Shown here piece after piece: positions 1,701-6,440 of a stretch of 42,307 nt of DNA. The position numbers and the translations under genes are program-made. The stretch comes from Fusobacterium sp. IOR10 (GTDB taxonomy: Bacteria; Fusobacteriota; Fusobacteriia; Fusobacteriales; Fusobacteriaceae): assembly GCF_010367435.1 (NCBI RefSeq), contig NZ_WJWY01000019.1, positions 1 through 42,307 on the forward strand, in the 5' to 3' direction. The notes below the pieces were generated by a model, which saw only the letters and a program-made list of their open reading frames with translations, had not been told where the DNA came from and made no database searches. The stretch's first letter is position 1; every line of letters starts with the position of its first letter.

Positions 1701-1736
1701 AAAAAAAACATCATTGATTTTAAAACCAATGATGTT
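1701..1736 (-). terminator. Intrinsic terminator in the nhaC leader
   Basis: On the minus strand a perfect 10-bp stem (1727-1736 with 1707-1716) is followed by a run of U. It lies between the conserved leader blocks and the nhaC start, about 90 bases ahead of the ATG, as expected for a riboswitch expression platform. The stem base CATTGG (1726-1731) can instead pair with CCAATG at 1749-1754, a possible antiterminator. Confidence 0.75.
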
Positions 1737-1740
1737 TAAC

Positions 1741-1880
1741 CACTTTTCCATTGGATCCCAAATCTACCTGTCAATATTTAGACGAGGTTAGCTACGGATA
1801 TTAATCCGATTAGAATGGGTCCCCCGCTTTCTTCTTAATTATAATTGTTAAAAATTATAAATAAAACTAAGCGATTTATT
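1741..1880 (-). ncRNA. ydaO/yuaA-like (c-di-AMP) riboswitch candidate, apparently short form
   Basis: Read on the minus strand, the nhaC leader has three blocks that match the ydaO class as I remember it: AAATCGCTTAG (1867-1877), GCGGGGGACCCA (1816-1827) and AGCTAACCTCGT (about 1781-1793). A small hairpin CGGAT-TAAT-ATCCG sits between the last two. I do not see the GGGGTGAATC and GTAGGG blocks that usually lie in that interval, so the element may lack part of the canonical two-site fold. c-di-AMP riboswitches of this class typically control ion transport and cell-wall genes, which fits an Na+/H+ antiporter. A promoter lies upstream and a terminator downstream. The ligand is inferred, not shown. 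Confidence 0.65.
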
Positions 1881-1894
1881 TGCTATTTCAATCT

Positions 1895-1922
1895 ATTATA
1901 TAATAAAATTAAAATATGTCAA
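1895..1922 (-). promoter_or_regulatory. Promoter of nhaC
   Basis: On the minus strand a perfect -35 TTGACA (1917-1922) is followed after 16 bases by a perfect -10 TATAAT (1895-1900). It lies directly after the hit stop codon and would start the riboswitch leader, so nhaC can be transcribed separately from the upstream genes. Confidence 0.8.
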
Positions 1923-4085: not shown

Positions 4086-6440
4086 ATGGCTAAATTAGAC
4101 CAAAATTTAACACCATTATTTACAGTTTTAAAAGATGTTTATGCAAAAAAAAATATTACTCCTTTCCATGTTCCTGGACACAAACAAGGGAATGGTATGG
4201 ATAAAGAATTCCTTGAATTTATAGGTAGAAACCCCTTAAAAATAGACGTTACTATTTTTAAAATGGTTGATGGGCTACACCATCCAACAAGTTACATAAA
4301 ACAAGCGCAAGAATTAGCTGCAGATGCCTATGGAGTAGACCAAAGTTTCTTTGCTGTTAATGGTACTTCTGGGGCCATTCAAGCTATGATCCTTGCAGTT
4401 GTAAAATCAGGAGAAAAAATATTAGTTCCTAGAAATGTTCATAAATCTGTTTCTGCTGGAATTATACTATCTGGAGCAATTCCTGTATATATGAATCCTG
4501 AAATTGACAATAATTTAGGAATAGCTCACGGGGTTAAACCTCATACTGTTGAAAAAATGTTAGAACAACATCCAGATGCTAAGGCTGTTTTAATTATCAA
4601 TCCAACTTATTATGGAGTTGCCACTGATATTAAAAAAATAGCTGATATTGTTCATGATTTTGATTTACCATTAATAGTAGATGAAGCTCATGGACCTCAT
4701 CTTCATTTTCATGAAGATCTACCTATCTCAGCAGTTGATGCAGGAGCTGATATTTGTTGTCAAAGTACACATAAGATAATTGGAGCTATGACTCAAATGT
4801 CTTTATTACATGTTAATTCAGATAGAGTTAGCCCTAGTAGAATTCAACAAATACTTAGTCTTTTACATACAACTTCACCTTCATATCCTCTTATGGCATC
4901 ACTTGATTGTGCTAGGAGGCAAATTGCAACAAATGGTAGAGAACTTATTTCAAAGGCTATTGATCTTGCTAACTTTACTAGATCAGAATTAAATAAAATT
5001 CCTGGTGTTTTTTCTTTTGGAGAAGAAATAGTAGGAACAGAAGGAGTATTTGCCTTTGATCCAACAAAGTTGAGTATTTCCATAAAAGAAATGGGAATTA
5101 CAGGATTTGAATTAGAAAGAATTTTAATTGAAGAATATGATATTCAAATGGAACTTTCAGATTTCTATAATGTTTTAGGAGTAATTACTTTAGGAGATTC
5201 TAAAGAAAGTGTTACTAAATTAATTGACGCACTTAAGGATATTAGTTTAAGATTTTTTAACACTAAAGATGTTAAGCCAATAAAATCTATCAGAATTCCT
5301 TCTGTTCCAGAACAAGTTTTAATACCAAGAGAAGCTTTCTACAGTGAAACAAATGTAATCCCTTTTGATGAAAGTGAAGGTAAAATTTGCGCTGAAATGA
5401 TAATGGCTTATCCACCAGGAATTCCAATAATAACTCCTGGGGAAAGAATTAGTAAAGAAATTGTGGATTATGTTTATGAACTTAAAGAAACTAAAATCCA
5501 ACTTCAAGGAATGGAAGATTCTCAATTAAATACTATTAAAGTAATTGAAGAAGAAGACGCTATGTATATCTATACTGAAAAAATGAAAAATAAATTATTT
5601 GGTGTTCCTTTAAATTTAGGGGCAGATAAATCTGGAATAGAATTTGGTATTGACGTTTTAATTGAAAATTATCAAGATACTTTTGATGAAATTGAAGTGA
5701 TTGAAGTTGAAAAACAAAGGGAGAATTTCAATTCTCCAAATTTAAAATATAAAAACACAATTTTGCACACATGCGAAAAACTTGCTAAAGCAGTTGATGA
5801 ATCTATTATGGATGGGTATAGGCCTATAATAATTGGTGGAGACCATTCTATTTCCCTTGGAAGTATTTCTGGTGTTGCAAAAACTAATAGAAATCTTGGA
5901 GTAGTGTGGATTGATGCCCATGCTGACATGAATACAGATGAAACTACATTAACAGGAAACATTCATGGAATGCCGCTTGCTTTACTTCAAGGAGCTGGAG
6001 ACTCTGAGTTAGTTAATTGTTTCTTTGAAGGTCAAAAAATAAATCCTAAAAATGTTGTTATTATTGGTGCTAGAGATATTGATGTAAGAGAATATGATGT
6101 TATTAAAGAACTAGGAGTTAAAGTTATACATTATGATGATATTATTAGAAAAGGTATGGATAATGTATTAGAAGAAATTAAAGATTACTTGAAAGTTGAA
6201 GATATCCATATAAGTTTGGATATTGATTCTATTAATCCTAATTTTGCTCCAGGAGTTAGTACTCCAGTTAAAAATGGTTTAGATGAAGATGATGTTTATA
6301 AGAGTTTTAAATTTTTATTTAAAAATTATTTTATAACTTCTGTGGATATTGTTGAGTATAATCCAATATACGATATGAATCATAAAACTGCACATCTTGT
6401 TAAAGATTTTACAGATTATATTCTAAACCCTATATATTAA
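4086..6440 (+). CDS. Fused Orn/Lys/Arg decarboxylase and arginase (bifunctional)
   Basis: One uninterrupted 784-residue ORF holds two enzymes. Residues 1 to about 490 are a wing-less, Bacillus SpeA-type PLP decarboxylase: HVPGHKQG near residue 28, DEAHGPH with Asp199 and His202, and STHK with the PLP lysine at 230. Residues about 500-784 are a ureohydrolase with the binuclear Mn ligands GGDHS (His587), DAHAD (610-614) and SLDID (Asp712, Asp714). The ureohydrolase looks like arginase (RocF), not agmatinase: it has GNIHGMPL, APGVSTPV and VEYNPIYDMNHKTA. Together they could take arginine through ornithine to putrescine plus urea. If the first domain instead decarboxylates arginine, the partner would have to accept agmatine. 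AAGGAGG precedes the ATG. There is no stop or frameshift at the junction. The gene is monocistronic between a promoter and a terminator. Confidence 0.9.
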   Translation: MAKLDQNLTPLFTVLKDVYAKKNITPFHVPGHKQGNGMDKEFLEFIGRNPLKIDVTIFKMVDGLHHPTSYIKQAQELAADAYGVDQSFFAVNGTSGAIQAMILAVVKSGEKILVPRNVHKSVSAGIILSGAIPVYMNPEIDNNLGIAHGVKPHTVEKMLEQHPDAKAVLIINPTYYGVATDIKKIADIVHDFDLPLIVDEAHGPHLHFHEDLPISAVDAGADICCQSTHKIIGAMTQMSLLHVNSDRVSPSRIQQILSLLHTTSPSYPLMASLDCARRQIATNGRELISKAIDLANFTRSELNKIPGVFSFGEEIVGTEGVFAFDPTKLSISIKEMGITGFELERILIEEYDIQMELSDFYNVLGVITLGDSKESVTKLIDALKDISLRFFNTKDVKPIKSIRIPSVPEQVLIPREAFYSETNVIPFDESEGKICAEMIMAYPPGIPIITPGERISKEIVDYVYELKETKIQLQGMEDSQLNTIKVIEEEDAMYIYTEKMKNKLFGVPLNLGADKSGIEFGIDVLIENYQDTFDEIEVIEVEKQRENFNSPNLKYKNTILHTCEKLAKAVDESIMDGYRPIIIGGDHSISLGSISGVAKTNRNLGVVWIDAHADMNTDETTLTGNIHGMPLALLQGAGDSELVNCFFEGQKINPKNVVIIGARDIDVREYDVIKELGVKVIHYDDIIRKGMDNVLEEIKDYLKVEDIHISLDIDSINPNFAPGVSTPVKNGLDEDDVYKSFKFLFKNYFITSVDIVEYNPIYDMNHKTAHLVKDFTDYILNPIY

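Follow-up and report, generated by a model that had tools for sequence, protein, structure and literature searches.

Riboswitches of the ydaO class (Rfam RF00379) sense c-di-AMP. In the accessible parts of PMC6488665, PMC9337991 and PMC7288161 they are described as two-lobed RNAs that bind two ligands, and the c-di-AMP riboswitches tested in the first two of these papers are OFF switches. Na+ biology is tied to c-di-AMP in the Na+-I/c-di-AMP tandem riboswitches, which, in the accessible text of PMC9337991, comprise two full aptamers and two terminators, in contrast to the one short element at the locus described here. The lysine riboswitch (RF00168) is an RNA unrelated to that element, but it too controls orthologous NhaC-family genes in this phylum. 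LysW, which belongs to the NhaC superfamily and is governed by a lysine riboswitch, is put forward as a lysine transporter in the accessible parts of PMC5584792 and PMC11477304, where its true function is called open. In a mostly open-access literature, searched partly at title level, we found no report of a short or variant ydaO element, of a fusobacterial variant of the c-di-AMP riboswitch, or of a c-di-AMP riboswitch combined with NhaC.

The window, by which we mean the whole 42,307-nucleotide stretch of Fusobacterium sp. IOR10 DNA that was analysed, carries on its minus strand, flanked by a histidine-triad gene (1929-2285) and a gene for an NhaC-family transporter (142-1614), a leader some 280 nt long. 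Its promoter agrees with the consensus at 12 of 12 positions (TTGACA at 1922-1917, a 16-nt spacer, TATAAT at 1900-1895), other short leaders having a like layout, and the leader runs into an intrinsic terminator with a 14-bp stem, a 4-nt loop and a T tract (1737-1701). A preliminary description had picked out this promoter, the terminator and three blocks of the ydaO class (AAATCGCTTAG, GCGGGGGACCCA and AGCTAACCTCGT); all are present, with their positions and letters correctly given. Along the transcript, CGCUUAG (1867-1873) is the homologue of the 5' strand of ydaO P1, the 3' partner of which is absent; the CGCUU within it is conserved in all ten short leaders known to us and can pair with AAGCG at 1829-1825 (hairpin H1). 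An inner hairpin, UUAUAAUU/AAUUAUAA (1839-1860), has the P1-like strand on one side and P2 on the other. The 5' strand of P2, GCGGGG (1822-1827), equals that of RF00379 and reads GCGAGG in three of nine aligned leaders. It adjoins a conserved junction, GGACCCAUU (1814-1822), which could also provide the 5' strand of a competing long-range helix, P-alt. In place of ydaO P4 and the whole second lobe stands a small hairpin, CGGAU/AUCCG (1795-1808), followed by GCUAACCUCGUC (1781-1792), which is invariant in 10/10 leaders and contains the P2 3' strand CCUCGU (1787-1782). Between the terminator and the start codon, at 1639-1665, there is an SD-like GGGGTGATA, then a AAATTTTAGCC/GGACTAAAATTT hairpin and then what is likely the real SD, an arrangement that resembles the one visible in other leaders.

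How close is this leader to the ydaO class? It shares with RF00379 the P2 helix with its conserved GGGGGAMCCA junction and AGCUAACCUCG strands, the AGCUAACCUCGU strand, a hairpin placed after the P1-like 5' strand and before P2, the downstream terminator and the association with a transporter gene; it differs in lacking most of P4, the second lobe and the 3' strands of P1 and of the pseudoknot, and its switching pairings are possibly unlike the canonical ones. The closing helix P1 keeps its 5' strand, whereas the 3' strand is replaced in 10/10 leaders, and the second three-way junction (GGGGYGAAUC, GUAGGG) and the pseudoknot are absent from all ten. The GGGGTGAATC and GTAGGG blocks, the lack of which had been pointed out at this locus, are missing from every homologous short leader, and alignment of the nhaC leaders shows the retained blocks to be conserved. 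When 701 bases containing the leader were compared with 4227 Rfam families, RF00379 was the best match (31.6 bits, E 1.8e-5); any other class was rejected, all remaining families having E values of at least 0.2. A search of the 2.03-Mb genome with RF00379 returned the leader (E 1.3e-5) as the sole match at E <=10. The curated cut-off of the family is 38 bits, and the leader falls below it because some 40 nt (the second lobe) and the 3' strands of P1 and the pseudoknot are absent; 38 mid-model consensus positions are deleted in the alignment to the model, and non-standard pairs are flagged within P1. For the same reason of score, a scan of the whole window at Rfam gathering cut-offs lists no family. 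The model also matches the orthologous leaders in genomes G031, G033, G034 and G036; five other short leaders reach 25.8-30.5 bits, every listed short form remaining below 38, and an Rfam scan of nine loci at E <=0.01 gave RF00379 alone, in three of them. The leader is a genuine, conserved relative of the ydaO class in reduced form, matching RF00379 significantly and better than any other family, and is not a formal member by the tests made. The kinship and the reduced form proposed at the outset stand. The element plausibly works like a c-di-AMP riboswitch.

Among 98 Fusobacteriota genomes, eight carry the short leader, which stands before ten nhaC orthologues in all. In the window's genus (g1), an nhaC orthologue under such a leader is present in every one of the seven genomes, in nine copies; in two of them (G032, contig C7, and G033, contig C56) the transporter gene is duplicated in tandem and each copy has a short leader of its own. 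A covariance model (R1) built from the nine g1 leaders and run over the 98 genomes recovers these nine plus one more, scoring 68.8 bits, in G019, a member of another genus. There, too, the leader stands before nhaC, with an upstream gene different from that in g1, and it shares the genome with two full-length riboswitches of RF00379 located at other genes. Full-length RF00379 elements (87-100 bits) occur in 12 of the 98 genomes at 14 loci, all in the sister genus g5, at what appear by eye to be opuC-type (osmolyte) and kdp (K+) transporter genes. Further R1 matches with E values of 0.01-1 outside g1 and g5 (L059, L063-L065, L071) were dropped, no motif being seen by eye in L059 and L063-L065; L070 in g5 was dropped on like grounds. 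An exact short-gap pattern, strict enough to miss GCGAGGGA forms, found a single record in a collection of genome contigs, NZ_JARHZE010000106.1 from a Fusobacterium sp. MAG (L022), with two copies of the short leader. A mobile origin was set aside, as neither plasmids nor viral contigs (the latter searched with the exact pattern) gave a match. At four loci of relatives in the genus (L015, L016, L021, L022) the upstream gene encodes an FKBP-like protein with a Cys/His-rich extension, not seen in the window's copy.

Is the element a decaying riboswitch? This reading was rejected, since the 36-nt core blocks are 94-100% identical in eight chosen pairs of orthologous leaders, whereas fourfold-degenerate sites of nhaC agree at only 43-63% in six more distant pairs. 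In the same six pairs, agreement is 16-74% over the small-hairpin region and 26-65% over the 3' tail. The small hairpin itself takes the form of three unrelated stems, CGG/CCG, AUGAAC/GUUCAU (G035) and AAGAG/CUCUU (G019). Variants within the core are an A to G change in the junction of G019 and, in both G035 and G019, a U instead of the A that precedes GCUAACC. In the alignment of nine leaders the six pairs of P2 are paired in 100% of cells; none has changes on both sides, and there is little covariation within the core. P2 is hardly variable and hence gains no compensatory support, and five of the 11 consensus pairs of the terminator stem have changed on both sides among nine leaders.

We propose, with a probability of about one half, that the leader derives by reduction from the ydaO/RF00379 c-di-AMP riboswitch, still senses c-di-AMP and governs transcription through its intrinsic terminator. 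From the ancestor it would have retained P2 (GCGRGG/CCUCGU) together with the junction GACCCA and the strand GCUAACC. The lobe with the second three-way junction would have been lost, as would the pseudoknot and the 3' strand of P1, leaving a remnant of ligand site 2 to sense c-di-AMP. We envisage two mutually exclusive folds: fold A, in which P2 is formed, and fold B, in which CGCUU and AAGCG would form a hairpin, CCUCGUC would pair downstream and GGACCCAUU would pair with the linker. The ligand would favour fold A. Because the partner of GGACCCAUU in the linker shares nucleotides with the putative antiterminator strand, a ligand favouring P2 would set that strand free, which most simply predicts an ON switch.

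Folding predictions bear on this scheme to differing degrees. Unconstrained minimum-free-energy folds contain the CGCUU/AAGCG hairpin in 10/10 short leaders, and in most of them CCUCGUC pairs with the linker just 3' of it and the linker also takes up GGACCCAUU or bases beside it, the folds of G034 and G019 deviating in detail. The possible anti-P2 partner of CCUCGUC in the window is GACAGG (1767-1772; hairpin AP). This hairpin is suggestive: 13-60 of 500 shuffles were as good in seven of ten leaders, as against 156, 301 and 385 of 500 in the window's leader, G034 and G035. The candidate 3' strand of the competing helix, UUGGGAUCC (1753-1761), faces GGACCCA and shares 2 nt with the proposed antiterminator strand CCAAUG (1749-1754). 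Helices between GGACCCAUU and the linker have predicted energies of -6.3 to -12.4 kcal/mol in the ten short leaders, against -2.2 to -5.4 kcal/mol in 14 canonical leaders. They are equalled by 26-428 of 1000 dinucleotide shuffles per leader and are mostly insignificant singly; we retain the helix as a suggestive feature, since its energies separate short from canonical leaders completely, though the leaders are related. The antiterminator itself fared less well. CCAATG at 1754-1749 can indeed pair with CATTGG at 1731-1726, as had been noticed in the first reading of this DNA, but 62 of 300 shuffles do equally well (26-209 of 300 over the ten leaders) and linkers pair about equally with the terminators of other leaders, and we have discarded this pairing as evidence. 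Two further estimates weigh against the proposed switch: whichever fold is adopted, the terminator is predicted to be favoured at equilibrium, by 3 to 14 kcal/mol, and forming P2 carries a predicted cost of 7-14 kcal/mol.

The sign of the switch could well be the reverse: the canonical OFF logic may have been preserved, with c-di-AMP stabilizing the short aptamer and thereby favouring the terminator, a reading to which we give a substantial chance and which the OFF behaviour of the riboswitches tested elsewhere favours. Two weak points weigh against it. The potential antiterminator strand overlaps the partner of GGACCCAUU in fold B and would be freed by P2, and the terminator is predicted to be weaker when P2 is formed in 7/10 short leaders, whereas in the 14 canonical leaders P2 never weakens it by more than 1 kcal/mol. 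The same calculation assigns OFF to only five of the 14 canonical leaders, with no clear difference in nine, and a sign test based on folding energy hence discriminates poorly. On such modelling the pairings lean weakly to a ligand-ON switch, opposite to canonical ydaO.

What might such an element bind? As reference for ligand contacts we used the T. pseudethanolicus RNA. Onto it we placed the nucleotides of the two c-di-AMP sites as tabulated in the accessible part of PMC7288161, and 27 of 28 letters agree. On this mapping, the short form has lost the site-1 nucleotides contributed by the second lobe and by the 3' strand of P1. Site 2 keeps both P2 strands, A9 (after the P1-like strand) in nine of ten leaders and A93 in eight, G035 and G019 lacking the latter; its P4 contacts GGU/CC are replaced by the small hairpin, which differs in these same two genomes. 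A one-site aptamer, as first suggested for this leader, is thus possible and compatible with the published contacts in that site 2 is partly retained, at the price of the defining contacts of site 1 and the P4 contacts of site 2. In the canonical RNA each c-di-AMP bridges both lobes, which would make a half-aptamer harder to understand. A DAC domain is encoded in 94 of the 98 genomes, including all eight with the short leader, and the window's genome encodes DisA (DAC plus DisA-linker) beside a RadA-like gene, the latter recognized by eye. What the analysis demonstrates is the homology and its conservation, the terminator, the loss of the missing parts and the co-occurrence with a c-di-AMP synthase; c-di-AMP as the ligand, a single site and a two-state switch are inferred.

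The identity of the controlled gene complicates the question of the ligand. Its product scores 473.4 bits against TIGR00931 (NhaC; curated cut-off 370) and also matches PF03553, its substrate being uncertain. In a tree of 33 homologues the ten short-leader proteins form one group (support 1.000), whose nearest branch, from G053 (joint support 0.929), has a lysine riboswitch, as has the clade next to it. RF00168 lies above its cut-off at 7 of 20 nhaC-family loci scanned (G053 and six others), and RF00168-bearing NhaC-family orthologues (L074, L075, L076, L078, L079, L080, L093) show 55-66% identity; the two short-leader loci among the 20 (L026, L073) gave no RF00168 match. Lysine riboswitches at the closest orthologues beyond the short-leader clade make the label of Na+/H+ antiporter doubtful, and with it the earlier suggestion that the leader ties Na+/H+ exchange to c-di-AMP. 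By analogy with LysW, the NhaC of this clade may be a lysine transporter, and a c-di-AMP link may concern lysine or pH rather than Na+. Elsewhere in the same genome (C33; L098, 1788-3170), another PF03553 transporter lies behind a lysine riboswitch, and the window encodes at 4086-6440 a 784-aa protein in which an Orn/Lys/Arg decarboxylase (PF01276) is joined to an arginase-family domain (PF00491).

It is conceivable, if unlikely, that the RNA, having lost half of the aptamer, kept its fold and now recognizes a different ligand, which might be some other nucleotide, an ion or an amino acid (lysine, for example). Both c-di-AMP sites lack defining parts although the core is under strong selection, and the gene is nearest to orthologues controlled by lysine riboswitches; yet the retained core is nearly letter-for-letter that of ydaO, the genomes encode a c-di-AMP synthase domain, and no positive evidence for any alternative ligand emerged from this analysis. 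Quite improbable, in our view, is a protein-binding attenuator or relic, in which the core would be a protein site and c-di-AMP uninvolved. The predicted cost of P2 would suit such a reading, as would an antiterminator not above chance; the core, however, is invariant, unpaired positions included, is identical to that of a known small-molecule aptamer, and is retained in both tandem nhaC copies of G032 and G033. We think it very unlikely that the leader is half of a pseudo-dimeric aptamer working only as a leader-RNA dimer or with a second RNA in trans: the short form retains one lobe of a structure reportedly called internally pseudo-dimeric in the title of a paper, but switching in cis on a nascent transcript would presumably give two RNAs little chance to pair.

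Returning to the c-di-AMP-sensing descendant, its fullest form would be a natural half-ydaO, a stand-alone one-lobe, one-ligand ON switch that, within a single fusobacterial lineage, took the place of a lysine riboswitch at a LysW/NhaC-type transporter. As a whole we regard this conjunction as doubtful. A conserved natural one-lobed form would show either a minimal sufficient aptamer or drift to a new ligand, and would test the need for the two-site architecture. The short form was missed by the Rfam cut-off, and others may therefore be hidden. For these bacteria, it would mean that control of an NhaC/LysW-type transporter has passed from lysine to a different signal, possibly c-di-AMP.
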